Below, one piece after another: positions 3,856 to 20,036 of a DNA stretch of 20,036 nt. Positions within the stretch are counted from its first letter, which is position 1. Each line of letters begins with the position of its first letter. The notes beneath the pieces are model-generated. The model made no database searches. It saw nothing but the letters and a program-made list of their open reading frames with translations, and was not told the origin of the DNA. The translations under genes were made by a program, and so were the position numbers. Source of the DNA: a virus; the IMG/VR virus record IMGVR_UViG_3300006345_000612, positions 1 to 20,036 of that record; one strand, given 5' to 3'.

Positions 3856-4367
3856 AGCCAATTTGGTTTTTTGGATGGGTCACGTAAATAATTAGATGCA
3901 GCCCAAGGTTTGGACGATATATAACGTTTGTAAGCAGTAAAAGTGTCAATGCTTGTGTCATGTTTAAACTCATCTGGACCTGCGAATGCGAATGATCTTG
4001 GTTTATATGGTGGTGGTGCGGAAGGAATAATACTTACCGCTTCCTCTAATGTTTTCTCACAACTATGAACCTTAGCATATCTCCATTGATATTCATTGCA
4101 CAAAGCTAGACCATGGGCAAGTAACCACCATGTATTTTCTAGGCAAGAGTTTGCCCATACAGTGCATGGATGATTACGAAATGCACCTTTCTCTGTCTTG
4201 TATGGTTGACCATCAAGACGATGCAACTCACCATAACCATGACCCCACTTGTCGGAGCATACAATAGAAAGCATCTGACAAGTTTCTAGAGGCATCTTGA
4301 CAATATGCTTGTCAGGTAGATGTCTAGCAGATAGAGTTGGTGATGGATTAGTTACAAAAATATTCAA
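3852..4367 (-). CDS. Conserved phage protein, unknown function (possible DNA repair relation)
   Basis: A 171-residue protein beginning MNIFVTNPSPTLSARHLPDK followed by a VKMPLETCQMLS helix. It continues with NHPCTVWANS, a Trp-rich helix (NTWWLLAHGLALCNEYQWRY) and a C-terminal block ending in KPNWL. I have seen this pattern in many phage hypothetical proteins, some labelled by distant similarity as pyrimidine-dimer glycosylase-like. I cannot confirm that, so no function is assigned. It lies between gene 45 copy 1 and DUF4385 copy 1 with 4-base overlaps on both sides. No counterpart exists at the equivalent position of the second module, where a small membrane protein is found instead. Confidence 0.7.
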   Translation of the reverse strand: MNIFVTNPSPTLSARHLPDKHIVKMPLETCQMLSIVCSDKWGHGYGELHRLDGQPYKTEKGAFRNHPCTVWANSCLENTWWLLAHGLALCNEYQWRYAKVHSCEKTLEEAVSIIPSAPPPYKPRSFAFAGPDEFKHDTSIDTFTAYKRYISSKPWAASNYLRDPSKKPNWL

Positions 4368-5035
4368 GGTTCTAATGCAATGTAGTAAGTTAAGTCTACA
4401 TCAGTATTAGTCCATTCGGAAATCAAATGTTTAGATACCTTAACAGTATAGTCACCTGGTAGCACACGAATGTTCTCAATCTTAAGGTCAAGAGAAAAGG
4501 TGCCAGTAGTACTACCTGCCAAGGTGAGATCGTAAGTATTACTGGTATCATTTTCTTTGTCCCTGAGAATAAGTTTGATAGTGTCAGATCCTTCTTCGGA
4601 AAAGAATGTAAGATCAGGTAAACTGTAAATAGCAGATGCCTTCTGTAGTGCTAGAAGATCATCGCTAGAAAGATTGAACTGAAGATCAGAACCAGGAAAA
4701 TTTACATTTCTTTCTGGTGCAGACTTAAGAGTAATCTCAGGATCAGAAAAGTAATACTTAGCAGATTGACGACCACCTTTTATGTTTACAAAATCAGAAG
4801 TTGTAAACTCTAATTGAGGATCGTTGAACAAAGAGATACCACTAAGAAACTGACTTAGGTCATAGATCGCAAAGTCAGAGGGGAATACTTCTTCACCAGT
4901 AAACTTTGCTAGAATATTCTCTGCATTAGAGATTGTTCTTACAGTACTTCCTTTACGAAAAACAATAGAAGAGTTGATCGTACTAAAATTTTTAAGAACG
5001 TCTAGTGTCTTTTTAGATAAAGTAACTTTACTCAT
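4364..5035 (-). CDS. 45: Sliding clamp gp45, copy 1
   Basis: DNA polymerase processivity factor, expected to trimerise around DNA. In T4 it tethers the polymerase and also activates late transcription. The 223 residues (T4 gp45 has 228) match the family: an N-terminal LSKKTLDVLKNFSTINSSI block like T4 MKLSKDTTALLKNFATINS, the AIYDLSQFL segment near 57-65 (T4 AIYDLNGFL), and the end IENIRVLPGDYTVKVS... LTYYIALEP (T4 NYVVALE). It is translationally coupled to the DUF3310 gene upstream and the conserved phage gene downstream. A second, diverged clamp gene lies at 13213-13902. Copy 1 is nearer gene 44 and in the standard T4 position, so it is probably the ancestral replication clamp. Confidence 0.94.
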   Translation of the reverse strand: MSKVTLSKKTLDVLKNFSTINSSIVFRKGSTVRTISNAENILAKFTGEEVFPSDFAIYDLSQFLSGISLFNDPQLEFTTSDFVNIKGGRQSAKYYFSDPEITLKSAPERNVNFPGSDLQFNLSSDDLLALQKASAIYSLPDLTFFSEEGSDTIKLILRDKENDTSNTYDLTLAGSTTGTFSLDLKIENIRVLPGDYTVKVSKHLISEWTNTDVDLTYYIALEP

Positions 5036-5292: not shown

Positions 5293-5474
5293 TTCTTACT
5301 CCAGACATGTTCTATGTCTCCATGATAACATTGAAATTCATTTCCGTCAAGGTCAATCACATTTATTTTATGTGTTGCCTTCCACTCCTCACCTCCGTCT
5401 CCTATAATGCGAACACTCCTACCGTCTTTAAGACGGAGGATGTGTCCTAGATATCCATTAAACTTCTCCTTCAT
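5289..5474 (-). CDS. Small protein, unknown function
   Basis: A 61-residue protein read from ATG at 5474 (MKEKFNGYLGHILRLKDGRS). The frame stays open to an upstream initiator at 5519, but that would lie deep inside the CobS-like gene; the ATG at 5474 leaves only a 17-base overlap. The sequence (RLKDGRSVRIIGDGGEEW, INVIDLDGNEFQCYHG) reads as a small beta barrel of SH3-like type, by pattern only. It is coupled to the DUF3310 gene by a 4-base overlap. Confidence 0.6.
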   Translation of the reverse strand: MKEKFNGYLGHILRLKDGRSVRIIGDGGEEWKATHKINVIDLDGNEFQCYHGDIEHVWSKN

Positions 5475-6558
5475 TACTCTCCTCCTTGTCAAGGTCAACT
5501 CCCGCATCAATCTTATCATATAACTCTATGAAAGATTGCTTAGTCTCTTCATCAAAACGATTGACGCAAACTTTGATAGCTTTCACACGATTGTTCCAGA
5601 TAGCATATGCTCTCATGATGTGAACAAGTCTACGTGTACTGATGACTTCATCAATACCACCATCTTTGAAAGTTCTACGGATGATGTCTGCCCAGTTAGA
5701 AAGATTCTCACAAAACTCTTTGTCGTTCTTACCAACAGTAACAGCAACTTTCTCAAGAATCTTCTGCTCAGTTTTAGGAGTAGGATACTCTTGCTCAAAT
5801 GTCAAAGCAAATCTCTCAAGGAATGCTTCGTTCAAAACATTAGTACCGATGAATCTACCATCATCAGAACCTTTACCTTTTGTGTTGGCAGTAGCGATGA
5901 TGTTGAATCCTTTAGCAGGTTGTATGTACTTACCGATCTTCTTGAGGAAAATACCTTTACCTTCAAGAACAGATTGTAGACATAGAATCTTGTTAGATGC
6001 AAGATCAACTTCGTCTAGAAGTAGTACAGCTCCCCTCTCCAAAGCTTCAACCACAGGTCCGTTGTGCCAAACAGTATTACCATTAACAAGACGGAACCCA
6101 CCAATAAGATCGTCTTCATCGGTTTCAATTGTGATGTTCACACGTATTAATTCTCTATTTAGAGTTGCACATGCTTGCTCAACAGAGAATGTTTTACCAT
6201 TACCTGACATACCAGTAATGAAAACTGGATAGAATAATTTTGATTGAATAACTTTTTTTACGTCAGGAAAGTTACCGAAAGGAACATAACTATCATCCTT
6301 AGCAGGAATCAAATTTTGTACGACAGCGGGCATAGCTGCAGGAGCATTGAAAGTTTGCTCAAGTTTTTCTTGAACAGTAAGATTCCACTTACCAATGCCT
6401 TGCTTATAAGATTTAAGTCTTTTCTTTACAGTAGCAAGAGAGCAATTGAAATGCTCAGATGCTTCAAAGAGTTGCTTAGTGTTTACCTCAGTACCTACCT
6501 TATCAGAAAGGTATGTAACTAGGTCTTCAGTTGTAACAGGAACTGGTTCAAAAGGCAT
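5458..6558 (-). CDS. cobS: CobS/MoxR-type AAA+ ATPase, copy 1
   Basis: AAA+ ATPase of the type annotated as cobS in cyanophages, after the cobaltochelatase subunit, although no cobalamin pathway is visible here. The 366 residues show an N-terminal helical segment ending in KQGIGKWNLTV (about 52-62), Walker A GMSGNGKT at 116-123, a DEDDLIGGFRLVNG block (147-160), Walker B LLLDEVD at 179-185, sensor 1 ATANT at 222-226 and an arginine finger candidate at R249 (LNEAFLERF). The gene immediately upstream encodes a VWA protein, the classical partner of MoxR/CobS ATPases, so the two probably form a chaperone-like pair remodelling a protein target. It has its own likely promoter with a palindrome at -35. 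The paralogue at 15265-16368 is nearly identical in the AAA+ core but diverged in the first 50 residues. Confidence 0.88.
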   Translation of the reverse strand: MPFEPVPVTTEDLVTYLSDKVGTEVNTKQLFEASEHFNCSLATVKKRLKSYKQGIGKWNLTVQEKLEQTFNAPAAMPAVVQNLIPAKDDSYVPFGNFPDVKKVIQSKLFYPVFITGMSGNGKTFSVEQACATLNRELIRVNITIETDEDDLIGGFRLVNGNTVWHNGPVVEALERGAVLLLDEVDLASNKILCLQSVLEGKGIFLKKIGKYIQPAKGFNIIATANTKGKGSDDGRFIGTNVLNEAFLERFALTFEQEYPTPKTEQKILEKVAVTVGKNDKEFCENLSNWADIIRRTFKDGGIDEVISTRRLVHIMRAYAIWNNRVKAIKVCVNRFDEETKQSFIELYDKIDAGVDLDKEESNEGEV

Positions 6559-6620: not shown

Positions 6621-6640
6621 GTGTGCCACTTTGTCAACTG
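6621..6640 (-). repeat. Promoter-associated repeat, copy A
   Basis: CAGTTGACAAASTGGCACAC (S is G here) occurs here and at 18759-18778 with 19 of 20 bases identical, although the flanking genes are not homologous. In both places its TTGACA lies exactly 17 bases before a TTGA-type -35 box. A shared upstream activator site is one reading. Confidence 0.6.
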
Positions 6641-8811
6641 ACATACCCTATAAAAGAACTGAGTAGTTTTTTGTTGGTAGATTTGTTACCTAACATTCTT
6701 TTGAATGCTTTAGAAATCTCACCTTTTTGAGCACCAGACTCAACATTGAACTCAACTTCTTTGTTTAGTGATCTGCTATTGATAACATACAATGCACTGT
6801 ATGCTTTTGGATTACTTATAATAGCAGACTTTTCTTTCTTCCATTGTTTTTGTATCTCAGTATACTTTTCAAAGTTTGCATACCTACCAACAAAACCAGA
6901 GAGTGAAGAACCATCAAGAATACGGAACCCAATAACATTTACAGCAGGATTACGGTCACGTAATTGTTGAATGAAAATGTTAGTGCAATTGTCATACTCA
7001 AAAGGAGCATAGGTACGACCAGTTTTACGATCACGAAGAACTGCTGACCAATCAAGACGACGAACATGAACCTTGTACTCGTCTTGGTATTCATCATGAT
7101 ACTCTCTACCATATCCAGTTGTACATCCTTCGCCATCAGATAAGATGCAAAGATTTACTTTCTGTAGATCATTCTGTTTCTGGAAATTAGGAATGATGTA
7201 GTTCATCATAACTATTGCTTCATTCAAAGGAGTTCCAGAAAGTTGAAGACCTATTGTGTACTGGTAGTTAGTGTAATTTCTGTAGTAAGAAGCTTCTCTC
7301 CAGAGATTCTTGCACATACGCTCATAGTCTTTACCATTAGAACGAGATGAGATAAAGTTTACTAGGTGGAACCAATCATCATTGATGTAAACCTCATTCT
7401 TTACAGCATTCTCTTTCCTATATGAATAAGAATCATAATAAGGATCTTCATGATTTATAGATCTCTCAGCAGCAATCCAGTCATTAGTAAATCCATAAAC
7501 TTCAAATGGAATCTGAACTTTTTTACAGAATGCAGTTAGGTTAAGTAATTGTTTTACAGTTGCAAGAATCTCATTCTGCATAGAACCAGACCAATCAAGA
7601 AGGAACAGAAGACCGTGATTCTTACCATCAGGAAGAACAGTTATTTTTTTGAAGATGTCTTCGTTATAAAGATAAGTATGTAACTTTGTAGTATCAAGCA
7701 CACCAGTTTTAGATTGACCAGCACGAGCATAAGCGTCAGCAGACTTACGGCACTCAAATTCTTTAACAAGATAGTTTACCTCCTTCTGAGATTGCTTACG
7801 GAACTCATTGTATAGATGGTCAACTTCTGCATAAGCAACAGACTCAACTGCTTGACTATCAATCCAGTCGTGTAGTTTTTTCCAATCAACAACATGTTTA
7901 TCTAGGTTGACTTTCTCAGGAATCTCAACATAGGTTAGATCTTTTGAGTCAGGAGAAGAAAGTTTTTCTGATGCATCATCAAAAGAACGTTGAGTAGAAG
8001 ATTCATCACCACCTTCAGAACCTGCACCGTCTTCTTCTTCATCTTCATCATCCCAATCGTCAATAATATCTTCTTCAATCTCAGATTCAATCTTTGCAGT
8101 ATTACCACCAGAAGATGCTCCACCTGATTGAGGTTTTGCATTTGGTTGATCTTCATCACTAGACTCATTATCTTTTTTATCAGATGATGAAGAATCACTT
8201 CCTTGAAGAACATTAGCATTAGATTCAGACTCATCAGGAGTAGATGGTATCTCTACCTCATTCTTGTGTTCCTGACTAAATGCATATACATCTTGAGCAA
8301 TCTGTAGAACTTCTTCAAAAGTCTCAGCAAGATCTGTACGAGCAACAAATAATTTCTCTTCAATTGAGAATGGAATCAATGCACTAGCACCAATCTTGAA
8401 GTGAAGATTGATACGGTCAATCAAACTATAAGTGCTAAGATCTTCACCTTGAACACTGAAGAAATCCATGTCATGTAGTTCTTTGTATCCTTTAGAAAAA
8501 GACTTGTTAAGACCTGGAAACTTACGCTTCATAAGTTTCTCAATACGTGCATCCTCAATAACGTTTATAAAATCTTTAGGACAATCTGCACTATCTCTCC
8601 AATCTTCGTTAGGTGTGAACAATGCATGTCCTACTTCGTGACCTACTAGCATATCATATACTACGCTAGATGCTTTGTCCCACATTGGTAATGTCAATAC
8701 ACGACGATCTACGTCAAACATTGCGGTAGAAACTTTACGATGTTCTACGATAAGGTTCTCAGTAGCAAGTAGTCTTGCAAGGTTACCTTTGATTTCTTGT
8801 TGAGTGTGCAT
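6634..8811 (-). CDS. Zincin-like plus VWA domain protein, copy 1
   Basis: A 725-residue CobT-like partner of the CobS/MoxR ATPase. The N-terminal domain carries HEVGH at 58-62 with a downstream Glu in NVIEDARIEK (E86), the pattern of gluzincin metallopeptidases. Residues about 185-285 are a disordered, very acidic Ser/Asp/Glu-rich linker. A conserved bridge (KEVNYLVKEFECRKSADAY, about 343-361) leads to a VWA domain with MIDAS residues DWSGS (406-410), T527 in SGTPLNEA and D559 in LSDGEG. Whether the HExxH site is catalytic is unknown. The acidic linker and MIDAS match MoxR/VWA and cobaltochelatase-type systems, where VWA proteins present substrates to the ATPase. The stop is 75 bases before the CobS-like ATG. 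The paralogue is at 16449-18701, and the region 5' of both genes is conserved, including the -10. Confidence 0.85.
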   Translation of the reverse strand: MHTQQEIKGNLARLLATENLIVEHRKVSTAMFDVDRRVLTLPMWDKASSVVYDMLVGHEVGHALFTPNEDWRDSADCPKDFINVIEDARIEKLMKRKFPGLNKSFSKGYKELHDMDFFSVQGEDLSTYSLIDRINLHFKIGASALIPFSIEEKLFVARTDLAETFEEVLQIAQDVYAFSQEHKNEVEIPSTPDESESNANVLQGSDSSSSDKKDNESSDEDQPNAKPQSGGASSGGNTAKIESEIEEDIIDDWDDEDEEEDGAGSEGGDESSTQRSFDDASEKLSSPDSKDLTYVEIPEKVNLDKHVVDWKKLHDWIDSQAVESVAYAEVDHLYNEFRKQSQKEVNYLVKEFECRKSADAYARAGQSKTGVLDTTKLHTYLYNEDIFKKITVLPDGKNHGLLFLLDWSGSMQNEILATVKQLLNLTAFCKKVQIPFEVYGFTNDWIAAERSINHEDPYYDSYSYRKENAVKNEVYINDDWFHLVNFISSRSNGKDYERMCKNLWREASYYRNYTNYQYTIGLQLSGTPLNEAIVMMNYIIPNFQKQNDLQKVNLCILSDGEGCTTGYGREYHDEYQDEYKVHVRRLDWSAVLRDRKTGRTYAPFEYDNCTNIFIQQLRDRNPAVNVIGFRILDGSSLSGFVGRYANFEKYTEIQKQWKKEKSAIISNPKAYSALYVINSRSLNKEVEFNVESGAQKGEISKAFKRMLGNKSTNKKLLSSFIGYVS

Positions 8812-8838: not shown

Positions 8839-8862
8839 TAGCAAAGAAAACTATCTAGCCAA
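8835..8862 (-). promoter_or_regulatory. Likely promoter for VWA copy 1
   Basis: Minus strand TTGGCT (8857-8862), 16 bases, TATGAT (8835-8840). The stretch from the -10 to the ATG is 29 bases here and also 29 bases at the paralogous gene, with 20 of 29 positions identical. The -35 is weak; the -10 is supported by conservation between copies. Confidence 0.5.
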
Positions 8863-10600
8863 CCAGTGCATGTGTCACTTCGTGAACTGTCTCCTCTAAG
8901 GTAGAATAATTTTTATCCTTATTAACGGTTATAGTTCTGTCAAATTTATCATCTAATCCTTGTTTATGACTAATAACATATACTTTAGTGTTCTCATCAA
9001 AGTTTCTCAAGATCCATCCTAGATCAGATGTACCAGATTGGTCAAGAGATCCATCAAATATCTCATCTAAGATAAGTAAATTAGTATCCACGCTATTCTT
9101 AAGCTTAGCAATACTACGCCAAGTGAGCAGAAGAGCGATATCAATGCGAGCTTTTTCTCCTTCTGAGAACGAATCATATGAAAATACGTCACGGTATCTA
9201 CTCTTAATTATTTCATCAAAGTTCTCATCAAGGGTAAAATTGACATAAAACTCCATCCTTTGTAAGAAATCGTTAATTAACTTATTCATTGTAGGAAGAT
9301 AAGTCTTGATAATCCTAGTCTTTATCCCATTATCCTTAAGTAGTTGTCCTGCAGTTGTCAGGACATCACGATCTTTCTTTAGATCAGCATGTTGTTTACT
9401 AGATTCTTTCTTATTGCTTACAAGAAGTTGCAATTTATCATACTCTGCTTTCTTATCAGGTGTAGATCCCTCTAGTTCTTTGATCTCATCTTGTAATGAT
9501 TCAATCTGTTTACGAATTGTTAGTAATTGAAAATTGGTTTGAGAAATTGTTGTATTGATATTGTTTACTTCAGTAGAGAGTTCAGTAAATTTATCATATC
9601 TTTTTTGTTCATCTGTTATTGCTTTCTGTAAATCTTCATAACCAATGTTCATTTCATCAACCTTGGTTTGTCCTGCTTCTAATTTCTCATTACGAAACTC
9701 TTCTGATAGTTCCTGTGTACACGTTGGGCACACATGATTGTCCTCAAAAAACTTATGCTCCTTCTTACATGTGTTCAACTTATGTGTCAACTTAATCAAG
9801 TACGTGTTTAACTTGCTCAATTTTTCAGTGGACTTTGAATACTCCTGCATTTCTTTATTAAGTTTACAGATTTGCTCTGTAAAAACTGATACTTCTTCAG
9901 CACCTTGAAGTTCTGTATTTTTATATTCATTTATCTTTTCTTTCTTACGATCAATTTCCTCCTGAGTTTTTTTCTCTAGAGAAAACATATGTTGTTTTTG
10001 TAATTCAATCCTATCTTTAAGTAGATCAAGTTGATAATCAATGTCACGTAGCTCTTCATTATTACCACGCATCTTATCTTTAAGGAGAACATTCATTGTA
10101 GAGAATACTTGAATGTCCAGAATGTCTTCAATAATATCACGACGTTGACCACCAGGTAATTTCATGAATGGCACAAATGTAGATGATCCTAGTACCACAA
10201 TTTGTGTAAATGATTTGTAATTCATCTTGAGAACATTTGCCTCAAAATTCTTTTGTTGTTCTAGTTGACTACTATCTTGATTCCATGCCTGACCATTACA
10301 GTAGATCTCAAACTTACTGGGTTTCATACCACGTATGACTTTGTACTCTATCTTACCAATACGAAACTCAATCTCTGCTACACAATCTTTTTCGTTGATA
10401 CTATTGACCAACATACTTTTACTAATTTTACGAAACGGTCTAGCAAACAAGGAAAAAGTAAGAGCATCCAATATGGTACTTTTACCAGCACCATTACTAC
10501 CAACAATTAAATTTGTTCTTCCTTCTGTAAGGTCAATCTCACTAAAAACATTTCCAGTTGATAGAAAATTCTTCCAACGGATCTTTTCAAAAATTATCAT
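8855..10600 (-). CDS. 46: Recombination nuclease ATPase subunit gp46 (Rad50-like), copy 1
   Basis: SMC/Rad50-type ATPase that with gp47 resects DNA ends for recombination-dependent replication and host DNA breakdown. The 581 residues (T4 gp46 has about 560) show Walker A GSNGAGKST at 34-42, long coiled coils, a zinc hook CPTC at 291-294, the ABC signature SFSEGEKAR at 477-485, Walker B LLILDEIFD at 508-516 and an H-loop His at 545. The start overlaps the DUF3110 stop as ATGA, placing it in one operon with gene 47. A second, partly visible gene 46 lies at 19043-20036. Confidence 0.96.
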   Translation of the reverse strand: MIIFEKIRWKNFLSTGNVFSEIDLTEGRTNLIVGSNGAGKSTILDALTFSLFARPFRKISKSMLVNSINEKDCVAEIEFRIGKIEYKVIRGMKPSKFEIYCNGQAWNQDSSQLEQQKNFEANVLKMNYKSFTQIVVLGSSTFVPFMKLPGGQRRDIIEDILDIQVFSTMNVLLKDKMRGNNEELRDIDYQLDLLKDRIELQKQHMFSLEKKTQEEIDRKKEKINEYKNTELQGAEEVSVFTEQICKLNKEMQEYSKSTEKLSKLNTYLIKLTHKLNTCKKEHKFFEDNHVCPTCTQELSEEFRNEKLEAGQTKVDEMNIGYEDLQKAITDEQKRYDKFTELSTEVNNINTTISQTNFQLLTIRKQIESLQDEIKELEGSTPDKKAEYDKLQLLVSNKKESSKQHADLKKDRDVLTTAGQLLKDNGIKTRIIKTYLPTMNKLINDFLQRMEFYVNFTLDENFDEIIKSRYRDVFSYDSFSEGEKARIDIALLLTWRSIAKLKNSVDTNLLILDEIFDGSLDQSGTSDLGWILRNFDENTKVYVISHKQGLDDKFDRTITVNKDKNYSTLEETVHEVTHALVG

Positions 10601-10860
10601 TCTAAATTGTCAGGTGGTATTATAAAATCGTCAGGTGTGATGATGGAAAATTTTTGTCCTCTTTGCTGACATGCATCTATTATAACATGATCTTCCATTT
10701 CCACAACCCTCATGGAAGGATATTCTGATACATCTTCTAACATTGTAAGATATCTATTTGCATCATCCTCTAATTGAAATATAGGTATAACTCTATTTTT
10801 GTCTGCATCAAACAAAGAATAGACTCCCTCAGCATGATTTTCTAGTGTAAGTACAAACAT
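10597..10860 (-). CDS. DUF3110-family protein
   Basis: An 87-residue protein matching DUF3110, which I know mainly from cyanobacteria and their phages: FVLTLENHAEGVYSL, then VIPIFQLEDDANRYLTML near 25-42, and the tail DDFIIPPDNLE. Function is unknown. It joins gene 47 (TAATG overlap) to gene 46 (ATGA overlap), which ties its expression to the recombination nuclease. It supports a cyanobacterial host and looks host-derived. Confidence 0.8.
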   Translation of the reverse strand: MFVLTLENHAEGVYSLFDADKNRVIPIFQLEDDANRYLTMLEDVSEYPSMRVVEMEDHVIIDACQQRGQKFSIITPDDFIIPPDNLE

Positions 10861-11900
10861 TATCCAACGTTACAACTCTCAATATATAGGGATCTCATGA
10901 CATTCTTGAGTGAAGGTTTGTCTACAGCGATATCCACTTCATCAATATATTCATTCAAAAGAGTCATTGTATCCTTAGTCTTTAAGTCTACATCATCAAT
11001 GTCATCTGTGTCAACTAGGGTTTCCACTATCTTGACATCATGTGCTCCTACGTTGTAAAGGCGATCAACCAATGTCTCGAACATTCTGTAGTCTCGTTTC
11101 TCTTCAACGATGATCTTGACGTACTTGTCTTTATAACTAGATACATTTGATTTGTTGTAGTCATACTTGGCATCATCGTAGAAGATCTTGTCAAATATTT
11201 CGTAAGGATTTCTGACAAATTTAAGTCTATCAGTTTCAGTATCGTAGATATGAAATCCACGAGAATCTTTGTAATCATTCCAATACATCTGGTAAGGATT
11301 GCCAAGGTATTGTACATTACCTCTTTTTGATTTGTGATGGAAATGTCCTGACCATACACGATCAAAGTTTTTAAAATCACTCACAGAAAATCCACCATCA
11401 AAATGCATGCCTGGTGTAACTTCAAAACCATCAACTTCCATGTGACTACACATGATGTCAGCATTACTACTCTTCATAGTTTCTACTGCTTCTTTCTTAT
11501 TCTCAGAATTAATCCAAGGCATCATAAGAAAGTTCTTGCCACCAATAGTTACATGTTCTGGTGAAGAATAGATAGTTATATTCTCATAGTTTTCTAATAA
11601 TAACTCAGGAGAATTTATCTTATTAGTATTCTTATAGTAAGTACAATGATTACCAAGAATCATATGTACCTTATAATCTTTTAACCTCTCGAAGTAATTA
11701 GTCTTAACTCTGTTAAAAGTATTATAATCCAGAGACTTTCTATTATCAAAGGTGTCGCCAAGGTCAAATACCGTTGTGATACCTTCTTTCTCAAGAACTG
11801 GAAAAAATATGTTATCATAAAATTTTTGAAAGTAATTCCAAAACGGAAGAGAACCCTTACGTCCATCTAAATGTTGATCTGTTATAAGTGCTATCTTCAT
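10860..11900 (-). CDS. 47: Recombination nuclease subunit gp47 (Mre11-like)
   Basis: Metallophosphoesterase nuclease that works with gp46. The 346 residues (T4 gp47 has 339) have the metal-binding motifs in order: DQH (D8, H10), GDTFDNR (D49), GNH (N84, H85), SHMEVDGFE (H153) and GHFHH (H186, H188), followed by LGNPYQMYWND and RGFHIYDTETDRL as in T4. The usual GNHD motif reads GNHC here; the metal-ligand Asn and His are kept. Only one gene 47 is in the window, although a second may lie beyond the right edge, upstream of gene 46 copy 2. It overlaps the small gene upstream by ATGA. Confidence 0.95.
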   Translation of the reverse strand: MKIALITDQHLDGRKGSLPFWNYFQKFYDNIFFPVLEKEGITTVFDLGDTFDNRKSLDYNTFNRVKTNYFERLKDYKVHMILGNHCTYYKNTNKINSPELLLENYENITIYSSPEHVTIGGKNFLMMPWINSENKKEAVETMKSSNADIMCSHMEVDGFEVTPGMHFDGGFSVSDFKNFDRVWSGHFHHKSKRGNVQYLGNPYQMYWNDYKDSRGFHIYDTETDRLKFVRNPYEIFDKIFYDDAKYDYNKSNVSSYKDKYVKIIVEEKRDYRMFETLVDRLYNVGAHDVKIVETLVDTDDIDDVDLKTKDTMTLLNEYIDEVDIAVDKPSLKNVMRSLYIESCNVG

Positions 11901-12088
11901 TTAATAAAATTATGTTTTGATGTACTGCTCTTAGTTCTATTATGAATAACAATAAACTTATCTGCTGCCCAAGTTCCTGCAAGACAAACATCAATCTCGT
12001 CACCATCTTCCCAATTGACATCACCATTCATCTTAGTATGTCGCATTGCTTCTTGAATCTTCTCAATAATTTCAGTTGTTAATTCCAT
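11897..12088 (-). CDS. Small acidic protein, unknown function
   Basis: A 63-residue protein: an N-terminal helix (TEIIEKIQEAMRHTKM) followed by NGDVNWEDGDEIDVCLAGTW and a basic tail. I do not recognise it. Its TGA overlaps the gene 47 ATG, so translation of gene 47 is probably coupled to it. It overlaps the preceding gene by 17 bases. Confidence 0.6.
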   Translation of the reverse strand: MELTTEIIEKIQEAMRHTKMNGDVNWEDGDEIDVCLAGTWAADKFIVIHNRTKSSTSKHNFIK

Positions 12089-12272
12089 ATTGTGTTAGGT
12101 CATAGTAAGGGATTTCTAGTGGTTCACCCTTGCGAGGTGTTGGTTGTCCTATCTTTTCTAAGATCTCAGCAGGAATCTTTTTCATAGTGATGTCATAGGG
12201 TATCGGTGCGTTTGCTACACACACTCTAATACATTCCCATTGTTCCTCAGTAAAAAAATTATTATGATACAT
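12072..12272 (-). CDS. Small protein, unknown function
   Basis: A 66-residue soluble protein (MYHNNFFTEEQWECIRVCVA, then TPRKGEPLEIPYYDLTQYG). No family recognised. It is the first gene after a 69-base gap (12273-12341), so it probably heads the gene 47/46 transcription block, although I could not find a convincing promoter in that gap. Confidence 0.55.
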   Translation of the reverse strand: MYHNNFFTEEQWECIRVCVANAPIPYDITMKKIPAEILEKIGQPTPRKGEPLEIPYYDLTQYGINN

Positions 12273-12341
12273 TAGTCATATAAAGAAATTGTTTGAAAGA
12301 AACATACAGTTCCTGACAATATTATTAAAAACTTTACCAAT

Positions 12342-12581
12342 TTAATCGTCATGATCATCCCAAGGATCTGCTAACTCTTTATTGTCAAAGAACCCTTTGT
12401 ATATACCAAAGCCTGCTAACAACACAGTAACAACTGCTATTGATATTCCTAGTGTTACGTTAGGATCAGCATTGTAATGTGGAATAATTGCATTGCATTT
12501 AGTCCATGTACCTGGTAGTGTATACACAGGTGGACATGATGCTAACAAGTCTTTTATAGCGTACATCTCACTTCCTATCAT
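12342..12581 (-). CDS. Small single-pass membrane protein with VYTLPGTW motif (A)
   Basis: Up to 79 residues. The first ATG (12581) overlaps the DUF4385 stop as ATGA; an ATG five codons later (12566) gives an N-terminus that lines up without gaps with the other VYTLPGTW protein at 13043-13225, so it may be the true start. The order is a short N-terminal segment, VYTLPGTW, one membrane segment (about LGISIAVVTVLLAGFGIYKG) and an acidic tail ending DPWDDHDD. Function unknown. The two related proteins flank the DUF4385 copy 2 gene. Confidence 0.6.
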   Translation of the reverse strand: MIGSEMYAIKDLLASCPPVYTLPGTWTKCNAIIPHYNADPNVTLGISIAVVTVLLAGFGIYKGFFDNKELADPWDDHDD

Positions 12582-13039
12582 TCGTTAGATCTCCATTCTT
12601 TTCTCATTTTAACATATGTATCAGATTTTGCAACTATGTCTCTAACTTTCTTAAATATTTTAGCAGACCTAGCAAAATGACAAGTAGCATGATCTTCTTC
12701 TTGGGGTATTACATTACCTTCTTCATCATACTTTTTACCATCTCTATGATTGGCATATCTCCTTGACCTAGTAAATCCCATCTCAAGAAACTTACGACAC
12801 ATATCCATACCGATGAAGTCTTCTTCATCACGATAGTCAAGATACATACCAAAGATATGGTTAGAAGATTTTACTGCTTCATCTGGAGTTCTGAATCTCC
12901 AATGAGCACAAATAGTGTTAGTATAAGGGCGAACCAGTAGAACTCCCTGTTCTCCCCTTCCAATACGATAAAGGTTGCGATTCTCTTCAACTGAAAAGTC
13001 AAGCGCCTTGTAATCGAGGTCATAATCAAATTCTTTCAT
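12578..13039 (-). CDS. DUF4385-family protein, copy 2
   Basis: A 153-residue paralogue of the protein at 3373-3855, with the same blocks: MKEFDYDLDYK, LYRIGRGEQGVLLVRPYTN, HWRFRTP, FGMYLDYRDEEDFIGMDMCR, FTRSRRYANH and KVRDIVAKSDTYVKMRKEW. It differs mainly in the linker near residues 105-125. Its DNA between 12916 and 12973 matches copy 1 at 56 of 58 bases, far closer than other paralogous regions. Function unknown. Confidence 0.85.
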   Translation of the reverse strand: MKEFDYDLDYKALDFSVEENRNLYRIGRGEQGVLLVRPYTNTICAHWRFRTPDEAVKSSNHIFGMYLDYRDEEDFIGMDMCRKFLEMGFTRSRRYANHRDGKKYDEEGNVIPQEEDHATCHFARSAKIFKKVRDIVAKSDTYVKMRKEWRSNE

Positions 13040-13042
13040 TCA

Positions 13043-13225
13043 TTAATTAAGTTTCCGTTTGCGTTTAATAGCTACTGTGGATATAACTGCTGCGGTAACA
13101 AATACAAATGCGGCTGATGCTAGGAGAAATGTAGGATCAAACAACACTTCTGGTTGTGGTTCCCATGTGCCAGGCAAAGTGTAGACAGATGGATTAGATG
13201 CAAAAAACAAAATTAGTCCTCCCAT
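13043..13225 (-). CDS. Small single-pass membrane protein with VYTLPGTW motif (B)
   Basis: A 60-residue protein: MGGLILFFASNPSVYTLPGT, a proline-rich turn, one membrane segment (about LLASAAFVFVTAAVISTVAI) and a basic KRKRKLN end, suggesting a cytoplasmic C-terminus. It shares the ASxPxVYTLPGTW block with the protein at 12342-12581 but not the tail. It overlaps the end of clamp copy 2 by 13 bases. No function is known to me. Confidence 0.6.
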   Translation of the reverse strand: MGGLILFFASNPSVYTLPGTWEPQPEVLFDPTFLLASAAFVFVTAAVISTVAIKRKRKLN

Positions 13226-13902
13226 GTGATATCAGGTTCTAGGGCTATATAGTAAGTTAGATCATACTCAGCAGACTTAAATTGTGACAAAAGTTTACGA
13301 GAGATCTTAACTTCATATGTTCCAGGCACAATCTTGATGTTCTCTACCTTGAAATTCATGGAGAACTTCTTATCAGTTTCACCAACAACAATAGAGAAAT
13401 CATTAGAGGTATCATTCTTACGATCTAATACGACCATCTTAATTTCTTTACCGTCACCAATCACTGATAAATCTGTTAAGTGATATACACCAGCAGCTTT
13501 AAGTAAACGATCAAGTTGAGAACTTCTAAGTGTAAACTCTACATCCACTGATGGAAGAGTAATGGACTTTTCTGGTGGAGATACAATCACACTAGGATCA
13601 GCAAAGAAATACTTTGATCTTTGTTTTCCTTCTTTGATATTTACAAAACTCTGTCCTGTAAAATTAAGTTCTGGTTCTTGGAATAATCCAAGTGAATTTA
13701 GGAATTGACTTAAATCATATACCCCAAAGTCTTGTGGAAAGTCTTCATCTACATTTGCCTCTGCAAGTATATTCTTCATGACACTTATGGTACGAAGTTG
13801 ATTACCTTGCTTAAAAAGGATAGATTGATTGATAGAAGCAAAGTTCTTTAGTAAGTTGATAGTTCTATCTGAAAGTTTCATCGGTATTTTAGTTGTTGTC
13901 AT
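13213..13902 (-). CDS. 45: Sliding clamp gp45, copy 2
   Basis: A second gp45-type processivity clamp of up to 229 residues. It has the LSDRTINLLKNFASINQSI opening, VYDLSQFL, FVNIK, NDTSN, VENIKIVPGTYEVKIS and LTYYIALEP blocks, and aligns along its whole length with copy 1 at about half identity by eye. It ends with a six-residue extension (DITWED) absent from copy 1. Either the ATG at 13902 (14-base overlap with the preceding gene) or the ATG at 13881 (giving MKLSDRT, like T4 MKLSKDT) could be the start; no strong ribosome site decides. Being intact and diverged, it is probably functional. The upstream neighbour is again a DUF3310 gene, as in copy 1. Confidence 0.92.
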   Translation of the reverse strand: MTTTKIPMKLSDRTINLLKNFASINQSILFKQGNQLRTISVMKNILAEANVDEDFPQDFGVYDLSQFLNSLGLFQEPELNFTGQSFVNIKEGKQRSKYFFADPSVIVSPPEKSITLPSVDVEFTLRSSQLDRLLKAAGVYHLTDLSVIGDGKEIKMVVLDRKNDTSNDFSIVVGETDKKFSMNFKVENIKIVPGTYEVKISRKLLSQFKSAEYDLTYYIALEPDITWED

Positions 13903-14689
13903 TAAAAGAAAAATGATATAGGAGTGTGCAATAGTGAATGGCTTTTAGAATATCCTTTCTATTCTTACCATCTTTTTTGCCAAATCTTGAAAGATACTTG
14001 ATCGCATTGGATCGGCAAAATGCTTCCGCATCTCCAATACTTTCTATAAGATCTAGGGTTTGATAGTTACCCTTATCACTAGTATAGTGCAATTCGTACG
14101 TTTTGGCGATATAATCCTCAGCTTGTTTAAGAATTGCATCTTCCTCATACTTAAATGTTTTGGTTATGTATGGAGGAACTGTGTTGTTTCCAAAGTGATG
14201 AGCTCTTTGATCATCTACATCAGCGAGATAATCAACACCAAAAGGATTTGGTCTGTCGGGATCATTACGAGTGTAATCATACCAATACTCTGAGTGTTCT
14301 ATATCTTCCGATATTTCAGCAGTGTTTCCATAACCTAATGGCTCCTGACCCATCATGTAGTCAAAGGCTTCGGTATAATCGTCACCATTACATGCTTCCT
14401 CATCAGGAACCTCTGGTGGCCATGGTGAACCTGGCGTCCACTCAAATCCTCCACTCTTCGCAATCCAATCAAGGTCTTTATCCCTTTTATCTTCAACTTC
14501 ACTCCAAGTTATTTCCTCGAAGTAGTCTCCTTGAATTACTTCTCTCTTGTCACTAAAAGGCTTTCTTCGAGTAACAGTTTTGCCACCATCAGGTGACTCA
14601 TAGATGTACTTTTCTTTGTCCATAAGAGGATAGTCTTCTTCAAATGTTCCATTCATAATTGAACCAGCGAGACTCCATGCGTTAACCAT
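13889..14689 (-). CDS. Long DUF3310-containing protein (N-terminal extension fused), copy 2
   Basis: A 266-residue protein. Residues about 182-262 are a DUF3310 unit paralogous to the 86-aa protein at 5032-5292 (TLDLIESIGDAEAFCRSNAI, then KYLSRFGKK, then ILKAIHYCTLLYHF). The first 180 residues are extra: acidic and rich in Tyr, Trp and Pro, including YIYESPDGGKTVTRRKPF near 28-45, which I do not recognise. No Met occurs between about residue 113 and the DUF3310 unit, so a separate internal start is unlikely and this reads as a genuine fusion or extension. The start overlaps the pebS stop by 8 bases and the stop overlaps clamp copy 2. Role unknown. Confidence 0.75.
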   Translation of the reverse strand: MVNAWSLAGSIMNGTFEEDYPLMDKEKYIYESPDGGKTVTRRKPFSDKREVIQGDYFEEITWSEVEDKRDKDLDWIAKSGGFEWTPGSPWPPEVPDEEACNGDDYTEAFDYMMGQEPLGYGNTAEISEDIEHSEYWYDYTRNDPDRPNPFGVDYLADVDDQRAHHFGNNTVPPYITKTFKYEEDAILKQAEDYIAKTYELHYTSDKGNYQTLDLIESIGDAEAFCRSNAIKYLSRFGKKDGKNRKDILKAIHYCTLLYHFSFNDNN

Positions 14690-15302
14690 AAGTAAATAAG
14701 AAATCGTGAACTAAACTATCTGCTTGTTCTTTACCAAACTTCCCTGCAAGATATCCTCCTACTGGATCTAGTTTGGTCATGTAAGCATCAAAGTCTTTGT
14801 ATTCGCTGGTATCAGTTCCAGACGGTTTCTCTAATTCTACCATGTCTTTGTACTTTGTCAAGTATTGTTCAAACATATCTAAATGTTCATCAACATCAGC
14901 AAAGGTACAATATCTAACAAAGATATTCTCAGAGAAGTGATTACCCATTTCAAAAAATCTATAATCTTGTTCTGCCTTGGGTAATCCAGGCACAGAGAAT
15001 AAAAATTTTTCTTTAGGGTGTTGAAAGTCAAATACAATAATAACTTTCTTTTCAAAAAATCCCATCAAATCCATACCGAAGCAAGGCAGATTACTGCCTG
15101 TCTTAGGGTAGATTATCGTATTGTAGATACATGACTTATCACTCCATATATCTACCTCTCTAGACTTAATAAAGTATGGGTTGGTATAGGTTCTAGCAGT
15201 TAAGTTAGTACCTTTACCTTCCCATGATGCCCATTCGGACTCAAACTTTAGGTCTGGAAATGTTTTATACAGAAGGGACTTGTAGTTCTTCCATAGGTTC
15301 AT
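14682..15302 (-). CDS. pebS: Phycoerythrobilin synthase (ferredoxin-dependent bilin reductase)
   Basis: PebS reduces biliverdin IX-alpha to phycoerythrobilin in two ferredoxin-dependent steps, a cyanophage speciality. The protein matches my recollection of P-SSM2 PebS (233 residues) nearly end to end: YNTIIYPKTGSNLPCFGMDL, VIIVFDFQHPKEKFLFSV, YRFFEMGNHFSENIFVRYC, YLTKYKDM and LDPVGGYLAGKFG. The two catalytic Asp of PebS (105 and 206 there) correspond to the Asp in CFGMDLM and in LDPVGGY, at the same offset, so no indels are needed. ATG 15302 (MNLWKNYK, 206 residues) is chosen over an upstream TTG at 15320; a GGAGG sits 11 bases before it. It overlaps the CobS-like stop by 38 bases. No heme oxygenase is visible in the window, so biliverdin would come from the host or from a gene elsewhere. 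Confidence 0.95.
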   Translation of the reverse strand: MNLWKNYKSLLYKTFPDLKFESEWASWEGKGTNLTARTYTNPYFIKSREVDIWSDKSCIYNTIIYPKTGSNLPCFGMDLMGFFEKKVIIVFDFQHPKEKFLFSVPGLPKAEQDYRFFEMGNHFSENIFVRYCTFADVDEHLDMFEQYLTKYKDMVELEKPSGTDTSEYKDFDAYMTKLDPVGGYLAGKFGKEQADSLVHDFLFTYG

Positions 15303-16368
15303 TAGGTGTCTCTCCTCCAAAGTTTACATCAGCATCAACCTTATCATATAGATCAAGGAAGGCCTGTTTGGTTTCATCATCAAAACGATTTACACATATC
15401 TCAATCGCTTTCTCTTTGTTTTTCCAGATGGAATATGCCTTTACGATATGAACAAGGCGTCTTGTAGAAATAACTTCCTCAACACCACCATCAAAGAATG
15501 TTTTACGGATAATGTCTCCCCAATCAACAAGTCTCTTACAGAAATCTTTATCATCACATAGAAGATTTAGTATCTTTTCCTCAGTTTTTGGGCTTGGATA
15601 AGATTGCTCGAAGGTTGCTGGGAATCTTTCGAGGAAGGCTTCGTTAAGCACGTTAGTTCCAATAAACCTTCCGTCGTCTGAGCCTTTACCTTTAGTATTA
15701 GCGGTTGCGATAACATTGAATCCTTTCGCTGGTTTGACATATCTTCCAATCTTCTTAAGGAAGACTCCAGTTCCCTCAAGGATGCTTTGAAGGCAGAGGA
15801 TTTTGTTTGATGCAAGGTCGATTTCGTCAAGTAACAATATTGCACCTCTCTCAAGGGCTTCGATAACTGGCCCGTTATGCCATACTGTGGAGCCATTAAC
15901 AAGACGGAAACCACCAATAAGATCATCCTCATCAGTTTCAATAGTGATGTTAACACGGACTACCTCCCTCTTAAGTTGAGCACAAGCTTGTTCTACACCG
16001 AAGGTCTTACCATTACCAGAAAGTCCAGTAATAAAACATGGGTAGAAAAGTTTGGATTGAATGATCTTCTTCACATCTTGGAAGTTACCAAACTTGACAA
16101 AGTTAGGGTCAACTGCTGGGACTAGATTCTGTTCTACTGGTGGAACAACAGCAGGAGCTTTGAAGTTTGCTTCAAGTTTCTCCTTGACAGTTAGATTCCA
16201 TTTACCAATACCTTTCTTATATGGTTTAAGGTATTTGGTGACAGTTTGATATCCCACATCATTCTGAGCACAGTATGCTTTGATGTGTGCGGATGTAATT
16301 TTGTTTCCGTATAGATCTCTTAGAGATGAGATCAATTGTTCGGGGTTCACTTTAGCTTCAAAAGGCAT
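15265..16368 (-). CDS. cobS: CobS/MoxR-type AAA+ ATPase, copy 2
   Basis: A 367-residue paralogue of the ATPase at 5458-6558. It has Walker A GLSGNGKT at 115-122, DEDDLIGGFRLVNG, Walker B LLLDEID at 178-184, sensor 1 ATANT, and LNEAFLERF with the arginine finger candidate. The AAA+ core is nearly identical to copy 1, but the first 50 residues differ until the shared KKGIGKWNLTV block, so the N-terminal domain may choose a different partner or target. The end (EPMEELQVPSV) differs from copy 1 and overlaps pebS. It lies directly after its VWA partner and has its own promoter-like region with a perfect palindrome. Confidence 0.88.
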   Translation of the reverse strand: MPFEAKVNPEQLISSLRDLYGNKITSAHIKAYCAQNDVGYQTVTKYLKPYKKGIGKWNLTVKEKLEANFKAPAVVPPVEQNLVPAVDPNFVKFGNFQDVKKIIQSKLFYPCFITGLSGNGKTFGVEQACAQLKREVVRVNITIETDEDDLIGGFRLVNGSTVWHNGPVIEALERGAILLLDEIDLASNKILCLQSILEGTGVFLKKIGRYVKPAKGFNVIATANTKGKGSDDGRFIGTNVLNEAFLERFPATFEQSYPSPKTEEKILNLLCDDKDFCKRLVDWGDIIRKTFFDGGVEEVISTRRLVHIVKAYSIWKNKEKAIEICVNRFDDETKQAFLDLYDKVDADVNFGGETPNEPMEELQVPSV

Positions 16369-16448: not shown

Positions 16449-18701
16449 CTATGCTATAAAGTCCATAAACTGACTTAATACTTTCTTGTTCATTTTTTTA
16501 GCATTTAATGATCTCTTGAAAGCAGATTTGATTTGAGCTTTGGTAGCATCTTCTTTCACAGTGAACTCAGTATCATTACCAAGTGCAGTTGATGACAATC
16601 CAAAGTAAGCATGGTATCCAACATCAGTAAGTTTGAGTGACTTATTCTTTTTCCACCCTGCTTGGATGTGTTGTACCTTATCGAAATCCCAATCCATATA
16701 TCTTCTGATAAATGAATTGGCATCTCTACCATCCATAACTCGGATACCTATAAAATTGACATCGGTAAATCTACCTCTGAGTTGATTAAGAAGTGCTGAT
16801 GTAACTTCATGATGATTAGACTTACAGAAATAAGTTTTTTTAGTTTGTGTATCTCTGATATAAACTGTTCCGTTCATGATAGATCTAGAACCCATGTAAT
16901 TTCTCTCAGGGTTATCAGGATAAGTAAAATTCTTACTGTATGAAAGTGGATGTGCTTCACCATCAGTGAGAGTGACACATTGTACTTTCTGAACACCTGT
17001 AGATTTCTTGAACTCAGGAATTATTTGATTCAAACATACTAGAGCTTCATTAAGTGGAGTTCCAGATAGACTCAATCTTCTAGGAGCTTGGTAGTAAACA
17101 TTAGGATTCCATCTGTAGTATGCAGATAATGATGTTGATAGTCTCCAAATACTAAGTAGTTGTTTTTCTAAATCAGATTTTTTACAATCACTTGTAAGAA
17201 ACTCTACCATACTGAAAGTACTTTCAATTTTTACCATACCATCTTTTTCTGTATGGTGAGCAGATGTATCCCTTCTATATGTGTAGAAGTATTCATCATT
17301 CTCATTGGCATAATGAGTCCACTCATTAGTGAAAGCATATACTTTAAAGGGTATTTGAACTTTCTTACAAAACCATATCAAATTAAATAATTGTTTGATA
17401 GTGTCCATAAGAACTGTACTCATAGAACCAGACCAATCAAGAACGAAAACTAATCCATGATTTTTACCATCTGGTAATATCGTAACTTTTTTGAATAGAT
17501 CTTCATTGTATTTGTAAGAGTGTAACTTTGTACAATCAAGAACACCAGTTTTTGCTATAGTAGCACGGGCATATGCATCTGCTGATTTACGGCACTCAAA
17601 CTCTTTTACGAGATAGTTGACTTCTTTTTGAGCAGATCTACGAAACAATCTGTAATCATTATCAACTGTTTCAAATATATTCATCTTAGTAGATGATTCT
17701 GAATCAAAATGTTTTTGAGATTTAGTCCAATACTCACTTAGATAATCATGGACTTCATCATTATTAGCAACAATTTTATTGATATCTAAATCAGGTAACT
17801 CAACATACTCTGGTTCGTAGTATGAGTTAGTTTCTTTTTTAGATAACTGTTCTAAGTTGTCTTGAAAAGTTTTGTCGGTAACTGCTTCAGATACACCACC
17901 ATGTTCTCCACCCATAAAATTGTCTGAAGCTGCCTCTAATTCCTCAAGTAATTCTTTATCTGACATACCATCAATGTCAGGGTTTCCTTGACCTTCTTGT
18001 GAATCGGCATCATTATCAGATTCTTCACCGTCTTTATCTGATTCTTCAAATGGCATTTCCATATCACCTGATCCACTACCCATCCCAAATCCAGAGAAAT
18101 CATCTTTAGAAAACTCAATGTCATCTAGTTTGGTAAGCATCTCTTCTTGACGTTGAACATGATTATATAATTCCTCAGCAAGTTCTAGAACATCTTCAAA
18201 TGTTTCAGTTTTGAAAGCCTGATCTACGAAATATTTTTCATCAGTTTCAAAAGAAACTTTTTCAAATTTACCAATCTTATAGAAGATATTAATTCTATCT
18301 GCCAAACCCATGTCATCAAGATCATGTGATGATAGTTCAAAGAAATCTTGTTCAGCGAGTTGTTTGTATCCATTGTAGAATGTTCTACTTAAGCCAGGAT
18401 ACTTTTGTTTCATAAACTTTTCGATTCTAACATCTTCCAATACATTGACAAAAGACATTGGGACATCTGGATACTTTATCTTCCAATTGTCAGCGGGTGT
18501 ATATAATGCGTGACCTACTTCATGTCCCACTAGAAGGTCATATACGACCCCAGAAGCCTTCTCCCACATTGGTAGGGTAAGAACTCTACGCTCTGTATCA
18601 AAGGACGCTGTAGAGACCTTACGGTTCTCTATGATAAGATCTTCTGTTGCAAGTAGTTTTGCTAGTTGACCTTTGACTTCGTAATTAACCTGTGTAAGCA
18701 T
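16449..18701 (-). CDS. Zincin-like plus VWA domain protein, copy 2
   Basis: A 750-residue paralogue of the protein at 6634-8811. It has HEVGH at 60-64 with E89 in NVLEDVRIEK, an acidic linker about 190-295 (different in sequence and rich in Gly, Asp and Glu), the conserved KEVNYLVKEFECRKSADAY bridge, and a VWA domain with DWSGS at 422-426, SGTPLNEA and LTDGEA. The frame is open to an earlier ATG at 18752, but MLTQVNYEVKGQLAKLL from 18701 aligns with copy 1, and the longer form would start at the -35 box of the gene's own promoter. So 18701 is chosen. It is likely the partner of CobS-like copy 2, as in MoxR/VWA systems; the substrate is unknown. Confidence 0.86.
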   Translation of the reverse strand: MLTQVNYEVKGQLAKLLATEDLIIENRKVSTASFDTERRVLTLPMWEKASGVVYDLLVGHEVGHALYTPADNWKIKYPDVPMSFVNVLEDVRIEKFMKQKYPGLSRTFYNGYKQLAEQDFFELSSHDLDDMGLADRINIFYKIGKFEKVSFETDEKYFVDQAFKTETFEDVLELAEELYNHVQRQEEMLTKLDDIEFSKDDFSGFGMGSGSGDMEMPFEESDKDGEESDNDADSQEGQGNPDIDGMSDKELLEELEAASDNFMGGEHGGVSEAVTDKTFQDNLEQLSKKETNSYYEPEYVELPDLDINKIVANNDEVHDYLSEYWTKSQKHFDSESSTKMNIFETVDNDYRLFRRSAQKEVNYLVKEFECRKSADAYARATIAKTGVLDCTKLHSYKYNEDLFKKVTILPDGKNHGLVFVLDWSGSMSTVLMDTIKQLFNLIWFCKKVQIPFKVYAFTNEWTHYANENDEYFYTYRRDTSAHHTEKDGMVKIESTFSMVEFLTSDCKKSDLEKQLLSIWRLSTSLSAYYRWNPNVYYQAPRRLSLSGTPLNEALVCLNQIIPEFKKSTGVQKVQCVTLTDGEAHPLSYSKNFTYPDNPERNYMGSRSIMNGTVYIRDTQTKKTYFCKSNHHEVTSALLNQLRGRFTDVNFIGIRVMDGRDANSFIRRYMDWDFDKVQHIQAGWKKNKSLKLTDVGYHAYFGLSSTALGNDTEFTVKEDATKAQIKSAFKRSLNAKKMNKKVLSQFMDFIA

Positions 18702-19042: not shown

Positions 19043-20036
19043 TTATGTAGAATATCTAACTTTTGAGAATCCGTTCATTTTTTCAAAGGTAATTAAATTA
19101 TCTAACCTATCAGTGAGTTCATCTACCTTATGAGAAATCATAAACACATAAGCATCCTTAATGACATACTTGATGATCTTTGTAAACTCGTCAGTGCCAT
19201 TACTGTCAAGTGAACTGTCAAATATTTCGTCAAGGATTAGGATGTTTGTACTAGATGAGTTCTTCATCTTAGCAATATCTCTCCAAGTAAACAGAATAGC
19301 AAGATCAATTCGCATTTTCTCACCCTCAGAGAATGATTCGTAACTGAATTTTTCATGTATAGGTGATTTTATCCTCTCATTAAACTGTTCATCTAGAGTA
19401 AAATTGATATAGAAGTCCATCATCTGAAGATACTTATTGATCTTCTGATTCATGACAGGCAAATACCTTCTTATGATCTTTGCTTTAACTCCAGAGTCTT
19501 TCATCATGGAATTGGCAAAGTCTAAGTAGTCTATATCTTCACTATTTTTTGATTTATCTTTCTCTACACTTGTTAACTCGCCTTTGAGTGACTTAAGAGC
19601 GGCTCTTTCAGTATTTCTGTTTGCAATTTGTTCGGTAATCTCTTGAATTTCTGATTCATAATCTCCGATCTGTCGTTGATACTGAGAAATTTTAAAATTG
19701 TTTGTCGAAATGTCATTCGTTAGTTGAGTGATTTGATTAGAAATTTCTATAAACTTAGAATCTCTTTTTTGTTCTTCATTTATAGACTTGGTAAGGTCTT
19801 TATAAGCGGAATTAATCTCTTTGACCTTACCTTCTATGTCTTCAATTTTATTTAAGCGAAACTCTTCTTCTATATGTTGTCCACATGTAGGGCATGATAC
19901 GTTATCAGTAAAAAACTTATGATCGGATGTTATATTCTGTATCCTTTGTTCCAATTTTGCCTTAATTGTGTTCATTTTCTTAAGAGAAACACGAGCAGAT
20001 GATAAGTTTTCTAACTCTGGTTGATACTTTGTCTTA
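19043..20036 (-). CDS. 46: Recombination nuclease ATPase subunit gp46 (Rad50-like), copy 2, partial
   Basis: C-terminal 330 residues of a second gp46. The frame is open to the window edge: residues before the internal Met at 19975 read KTKYQPELENLSSARVSLKK, so that Met is not the start and the N-terminus with Walker A lies outside. Visible parts are the zinc hook CPTC (in SCPTCGQHIEEEF), coiled coil, the ABC signature SFSEGEKMR, Walker B ILILDEIFD and the H-loop in MISHK. It aligns with copy 1 residues from about 250 to the end, but lacks copy 1's HEVTH tail and is clearly diverged. All visible ATPase motifs are intact. Confidence 0.94.
   Translation of the reverse strand, partial: KTKYQPELENLSSARVSLKKMNTIKAKLEQRIQNITSDHKFFTDNVSCPTCGQHIEEEFRLNKIEDIEGKVKEINSAYKDLTKSINEEQKRDSKFIEISNQITQLTNDISTNNFKISQYQRQIGDYESEIQEITEQIANRNTERAALKSLKGELTSVEKDKSKNSEDIDYLDFANSMMKDSGVKAKIIRRYLPVMNQKINKYLQMMDFYINFTLDEQFNERIKSPIHEKFSYESFSEGEKMRIDLAILFTWRDIAKMKNSSSTNILILDEIFDSSLDSNGTDEFTKIIKYVIKDAYVFMISHKVDELTDRLDNLITFEKMNGFSKVRYST

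Follow-up and report, generated by a model that had tools for sequence, protein, structure and literature searches.

What is the two-gene unit that encodes a VWA protein with a putative metallopeptidase site and an AAA+ ATPase, and does a single phage genome carry it twice? The window that we analysed is an entire IMG/VR contig (20,036 bases), in which the unit lies on the minus strand at two places: VWA_1 (16449..18701, 750 aa) with CobS_1 (15265..16368, 367 aa), and VWA_2 (6634..8811, 725 aa) with CobS_2 (5458..6558, 366 aa). The ORF caller starts VWA_1 at an upstream TTG (18752), and an earlier note on this DNA chose the ATG at 18701, which agrees with the start in S-SSM7. That note had read the unit as a zincin and VWA protein paired with a MoxR-type ATPase, each VWA gene being directly followed by an AAA+ ATPase gene of its own. 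The gene positions bear out the second point, and motifs, profiles and fold neighbours support the first. The identity of the unit is well supported: among the core genes of T4-like cyanophages it is the pair for a zincin-VWA protein and a MoxR/NorQ-type AAA+ ATPase, with one copy per genome.

Both VWA proteins match phrog_459 over their full length in profile searches (E=1.7e-262 for VWA_1 and E=4.5e-270 for VWA_2), and both are built from a predicted N-terminal zincin, an acidic disordered linker and a C-terminal VWA domain with a complete MIDAS. In VWA_1, HEVGH occupies residues 60-64, Glu89 lies within NVLEDVRIE, and the MIDAS is formed by D422-S424-S426, T548 and D580. VWA_2 (45% identical) carries the same zincin, linker and MIDAS set, and the combination described in the earlier note (HEVGH with a Glu further along, then the acidic linker and all of the MIDAS) is thus found in each protein. 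HExxH and the DxSGSM core are each present in 149/149 family sequences. In an alignment of 51 diverse members, which includes the distant phages DLP6 (Stenotrophomonas) and OC (Ochrobactrum), H60, E61, H64, N86, E89, D90 and R92 are invariant, as are all the MIDAS residues listed above. While HExxH alone appears in 140/5000 shuffled versions of VWA_1, the motif pair HExxH...EDxRIE appears in 0/5000, and its presence is therefore not due to chance. Judged from sequence, the third metal ligand of the predicted zincin site would be E89 or D90.

Modelled on its own with AlphaFold (pLDDT 85), the N-terminal domain has a short sheet, a helix at 51-67 that bears HEVGH and a helix at 82-100 that bears Glu89; as modelled, this helix placement is the layout of small gluzincins. 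The top fold matches of the domain (selecase, abylysin, jannalysin, ZMPSTE24, BlaR1, ArdC, IrrE/PprI and SPRTN/Wss1) are all zincins or zincin-like, and since their Z-scores (≤6.3) fall in a range where shared arrangements are common, a zincin fold is consistent with these matches rather than proven by them. From the modelled helix placement and the zincin fold matches we infer that HEVGH and Glu89 are grouped in space. The match list also holds the HExxH domain of an alpha-ketoglutarate oxygenase, and HExxH domains can therefore be non-peptidases. Among the predicted viral proteins compared, CobT-like proteins of phages and VWA proteins of haloarchaeal tailed viruses have the same N-terminal domain. 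DUF2201_N (PF13203), another metallopeptidase domain that is paired with VWA, was not matched within the window. In the full-length model of VWA_1 (pLDDT 75) the acidic linker, at about residues 196-270, is disordered and of low confidence. A PDB sequence search with the VWA profile gave no match; by fold, the closest neighbour of the VWA domain is the MIDAS domain of MDN1/Rea1 (Z 16-17), and NorD in the NorQ-NorD complex scores Z 13.6-14.7.

CobS_1 and CobS_2 match phrog_249 (E=1.1e-136 and E=1.9e-138, respectively). Walker A, Walker B, sensor 1 and FLERF are intact in both, and Walker A, Walker B, sensor 1 and FLxRF (arginine finger) are present in 152/152 ATPase family sequences. CobS_1 also matches AAA_5 (E=6e-18) and CbbQ_C (21.6 bits, cut-off 20.6). 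The nearest PDB sequences are those of Midasin (the best match), CobS, NorQ and CbbQ. These results support the assignment of the ATPase to the MoxR/CbbQ/NorQ/CobS clade. Midasin (Rea1/MDN1), the best match of the ATPase by sequence and of the VWA domain by fold, differs from the phage pair in being a single giant chain, in acting in ribosome assembly, and in having no zincin domain noted.

The minus-strand gene order of the window is gp46_1 - h80 - VWA_1 - cobS_1 - bilin reductase - DUF3310 - gp45_1 - h60 - p5325_1 - h79 - h66 - h63 - gp47 - h87 - gp46_2 - VWA_2 - cobS_2 - h76 - DUF3310 - gp45_2 - p624 - p5325_2 - h74 - h72 - gp44, where h80, p5325 and the like are our own labels for small genes without an assigned function (p5325 is phrog_5325 and p624 is phrog_624). 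The SbcC-like gp46 genes lie upstream of the VWA genes: gp46_1 (19043..20036; phrog_77, E=1e-91), truncated by the contig end, precedes VWA_1, and gp46_2 (8855..10600; phrog_77, E=6e-179) precedes VWA_2. The SbcD-like gp47 (phrog_100) is at 10860..11900, and the sliding clamp genes gp45_1 and gp45_2 (both phrog_223) are at 13213..13902 and 4364..5035; all of these are on the minus strand. The bilin reductase gene (Fe_bilin_red, 14682-15320) overlaps the end of cobS_1, as it does in S-SSM7. DUF3310_1 (13889-14689) encodes 266 aa with a long N-terminal extension, and DUF3310_2 encodes 86 aa.

The earlier note describes the module as present twice. For a single genome this is not borne out: the 463 phage records with a VWA gene hold it at 463 places, one each, and a hybrid gene stands at the join between the two halves of the window. 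This gene, p5325_1 (12578..13039, minus strand), passes from lineage A to lineage B at about 12945-12915. From 13047 to about 12930 the sequence is 93-100% identical to the lineage A type, and from about 12815 to 12618 it is 100% identical to the lineage B type, lineage A being 57-93% identical there and dropping to 57-75% in the end part of the gene. The nearest relatives of the VWA_1 half have each gene once, in the order gp47-gp46-VWA-cobS-bilin-DUF3310-gp45-h60-p5325-p624-h74-gp44, and S-SSM7 is alike; in the lineage of the VWA_2 half, p5325 and its neighbours are located between gp55 and gp47. The gp55 side lies upstream of gp47 in 115 distinct metagenome contigs, and gp45 in 4. Apart from the window, the contigs with gp45 upstream of gp47 are L059, L185, L186 and L224, all from samples 3300006305, 3300006345 and 3300006350; the arrangement is found in 4/14 contigs of the sample series 33000063xx-64xx and in 0/105 elsewhere (Fisher p=1.3e-4), and the same series supplies many of the window's nearest relatives. 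By base composition the halves are not separable (GC 0.359 vs 0.358).

The likeliest source of the second copy in the window is the joining of two related phage genomes by the assembly. T4-like phages recombine readily, and one phage could have acquired two divergent gp46-VWA-cobS-gp45 modules by recombination between differently placed p5325 genes; homologous recombination, too, would act at the p5325_1 switch site, p624/p5325 cassette genes are found at both places, and the order with gp45 upstream of gp47 is seen in five contigs, the window included. However, the other four of these share one sample series, the switch lies within a conserved 26-30-nt stretch identical between both lineages, the closest relatives of either half carry on in the single-copy order, and no isolate has two copies. 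The published ratio of cobS to terL in metagenomes is about 1 per myo-cyanophage genome (PMC9983427). On account of the series bias, the hybrid gene, the single copy in isolates and this ratio, we rejected a real tandem duplication as the main reading and consider it very unlikely. With the window read as an assembly join, comparison to the Kyanoviridae core genes phrog_459 ('peptidase') and phrog_249 ('porphyrin biosynthesis/cobS'), which give full-length matches and occupy the same gp46-gp45 interval, leaves the doubled module as the sole difference.

The small cassette of p624, p5325, h79, h66 and h41/h63 sits in the gp55-gp47 or the gp45-gp44 interval depending on the cyanophage, as if moving as a unit; in the window it is found at 3373-4367 and 12072-13039. 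L059, L185, L186 and L224, together with window positions 12578-13039, suggest that chimeric joins at p624/p5325 recur in that sample series.

Does the pair belong to cobalamin synthesis? The gene cobS is a cyanophage core gene (PMC3037559) found in almost all myo-cyanophages (PMC9983427), and ecological surveys still tally it as a vitamin B12 auxiliary metabolic gene. According to published proposals (PMC8651126; PMC2984593), the phage proteins would be CobST proper, acting with host CobN and raising cobalamin production during infection. The aerobic cobaltochelatase CobS/CobT has the same two-gene pairing and is distantly homologous over both proteins: the CobS model TIGR01650 matches the phage ATPases (E=3e-20), hhalign relates the VWA protein to CobT at E=4e-4 (probability 34%), and hmmsearch with cellular CobT finds VWA_2 at E=1.5e-10 and VWA_1 at E=7e-4. 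A cyanobacterial genome analysed as a control gives a CobN-family match, and a host-encoded CobN is possible. The phage proteins are nevertheless far under the equivalog cut-offs. CobS_1 and CobS_2 score 63.7 and 72.8 bits with TIGR01650 (curated cut-off 558.55), and neither VWA protein is matched by the CobT models TIGR01651, PF06213 and PF11775; for scale, two cellular CobT proteins gave E of about 1e-222 with TIGR01651, at scores just below its cut-off. The earlier note had remarked on the absence of cobalamin companion genes, and this is supported beyond the window, itself a fragment: CobN (PF02514) was found in 0/9 whole records of related or analogous phages. Judged by these family models, the pair is not a cobaltochelatase.

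The zincin site separates the two further. In a gapless alignment, cellular CobT has SVALR-type residues in place of the HEAGH of the viral proteins, with the later Glu usually kept. The site is missing from the cellular CobT proteins of loci L336-L345 and L347 and present in those of viral loci L348, L350 and L351 and of the window; HExxH is also retained in L346, a bacterial-genome locus. Intermediate viral proteins from pJN2-26 and T5S1 match Pfam CobT (E=2.6e-23 and 8.5e-11) and keep HExxH...E. We dropped the idea that genuine CobT carries a shifted HDxxxH, the alignment with the viral CobT-like proteins showing the HExxH helix replaced (e.g. by SVALR). Because SVALR-type residues stand where the viral proteins have HEAGH, genuine CobT, with the same N-terminal domain, looks like a relative in which HExxH has been lost; no statement of this loss was found in the literature searched, the coverage of which was incomplete. 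As genuine CobT lacks HExxH, a CobST role leaves the invariant zincin site of the phage protein unexplained, and with the family scores and the missing CobN it makes CobST proper a very improbable reading of the pair. The same observation bears on the dispute over the name. Liu and colleagues, who described cyanophage cobST, called the 'peptidase' annotation mistaken (PMC8651126); given that the phage protein keeps the zincin residues without exception and genuine CobT lacks them, 'peptidase' is probably the better name for the phage protein.

The cyanophage pair is not new: the core gene was known, and a zincin-vWA and MoxR pair was described by Iyer and colleagues in group 2.2 jumbo phages (PMC7824862), with the same N-terminal metallopeptidase-vWA fusion adjoining a MoxR ATPase. 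Those phages are group 2.2 and the cyanophages group 2.1, the two pairs being likened by their published description.

The placement of the pair among replication and recombination genes, between gp46 and gp45, which the earlier note had stressed, is a general one: gp46 is upstream and cobS downstream of the VWA gene in 78/79 loci, and the order is also that of isolates. Co-occurrence of the two genes in T4-like cyanophages, which the same note had put forward, is likewise supported by their record counts, which are equal in each of the three most numerous host groups: 365 for Synechococcus, 61 for Cyanophage and 24 for Prochlorococcus. Several cluster C cyanophages live without cobS (PMC10665884), so the function of the pair is dispensable or replaceable. 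In OC the pair is located between gp46 and gp45. In unrelated phages it is found near DNA polymerase, primase or UvsX genes: it comes after a primase/helicase gene in DLP6, precedes DNA polymerase III alpha in the Klebsiella phage pJN2-26, and is followed by polymerase and primase/helicase genes in T5S1. Synteny in itself is no proof of function.

A late-promoter motif was found upstream of the VWA gene in 0/159 loci, of gp46 in 0/158 and of gp45 in 0/159, against 66/67 for gp3; the scan is a partial control, since gp23 also gives no signal (0/37). Synteny and the absent late-promoter motif together favour a replication-phase role over late assembly. A chaperone with peptidase activity that helps to assemble and process virion structural proteins has been proposed for the same architecture in the group 2.2 jumbo phages, and the archaeal-virus MoxR-vWA chaperone cited there, with the tail chaperone of the Acidianus two-tailed virus, offers an analogy (PMC7824862). 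For the cyanophage pair this role is unlikely, given the lack of a late-promoter motif and its position with gp46, gp45 and gp44, away from head and tail genes. The literature searched on expression timing and virion proteomics held no statement on the VWA/cobS pair, and PADLOC defence models gave no match to the window at E up to 0.01.

Taken as a whole, the explanation that we prefer, and to which we give an even chance, is that the core pair is a remodelling metallopeptidase that works in the replication phase, driven by ATP and targeted by its MIDAS. The ATPase would form a ring, on which the VWA protein would dock by means of an insert in the VWA domain, in the manner of NorD on NorQ. In NorQD, the VWA domain sits on the ATPase ring, the MIDAS engages an acidic residue of the client and a linker is stretched (PMC13036017; PMC9976466). 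By analogy, the MIDAS metal of the phage protein may bind a client protein at an acidic residue, the linker may be stretched as the VWA domain moves, and ATP hydrolysis would twist or unfold the client, which the predicted zinc peptidase on its flexible acidic tether could clip. With a predicted zinc-peptidase site on the tethered N-domain, the phage protein probably cuts its client as well as pulling on it. The pair would be made with gp46, gp45 and gp44 and would most likely act while DNA is replicated or recombined, its target being a protein complex in need of remodelling or removal; an ATPase-driven peptidase acting on replication complexes is a reasonable proposal from sequence. A search of the literature for biochemistry on the zincin-VWA/ATPase family found none.

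NorQ-NorD also suggests a different role. NorQ is homologous to the phage ATPase, NorD is likewise laid out as an N-domain, a disordered linker and a VWA domain, and the complex, a metal inserter, is the closest solved one with a VWA partner (PMC13036017; PMC9976466). The HExxH domain could accordingly be a non-peptidase metal carrier or sensor, the ATPase ring opening a client metalloprotein in the way that NorQD acts on nitric oxide reductase. We consider this quite unlikely: most of the proteins nearest in fold to the HExxH domain are peptidases, and the conserved Glu61, the usual catalytic base, would be unnecessary for mere metal carriage. NorD, which matures nitric oxide reductase, differs in that its N-domain is not described as a zincin in the portions of the two papers covered here (PMC13036017; PMC9976466).

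The preferred reading, a remodelling metallopeptidase, can be extended. SPRTN/Wss1 and IrrE/PprI have a small zincin fold and are proteases of DNA-damage pathways; their fold match to the N-terminal domain is weak (Z 3.9-4.9), with no sequence match, and a SPRTN/Wss1-like DPC-protease role is a lead only. More broadly, and tentatively, viral 'CobT' may be a large family of active ATP-driven metallopeptidases of which cellular CobT is a protease-dead member, the cyanophage form working at the replication fork, for example in a SPRTN/Wss1 and Cdc48-like clearing of DNA-bound proteins; we see this as possible, though on the improbable side. Were the pair a remodelling metallopeptidase, cobS would be no evidence of phages boosting host cobalamin, and if CobT did lose a protease site, a subunit of the vitamin B12 chelatase would be related to a remodelling protease.

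Apparent cellular homologues of the VWA protein were set aside, nearly all of them looking like phage contigs: nearly all genome_contigs matches with readable context have the T4-like phage genes gp46, gp47 and gp45 by the VWA gene. L323 is a 188-kb contig with T4-like cyanophage gene order in an isolate assembly of Nonlabens xiamenensis, either contamination or an unusual phage. In Staphylococcus phage A5W (L349), Mycobacterium phage Aegeus (L352) and Acinetobacter phage YMC13/03/R2096 (L353), the gene for a CobS-like AAA ATPase is followed by one for a DUF7192 (PF23822) protein that has neither MIDAS nor HExxH, possibly a different partner family of CobS-like ATPases.
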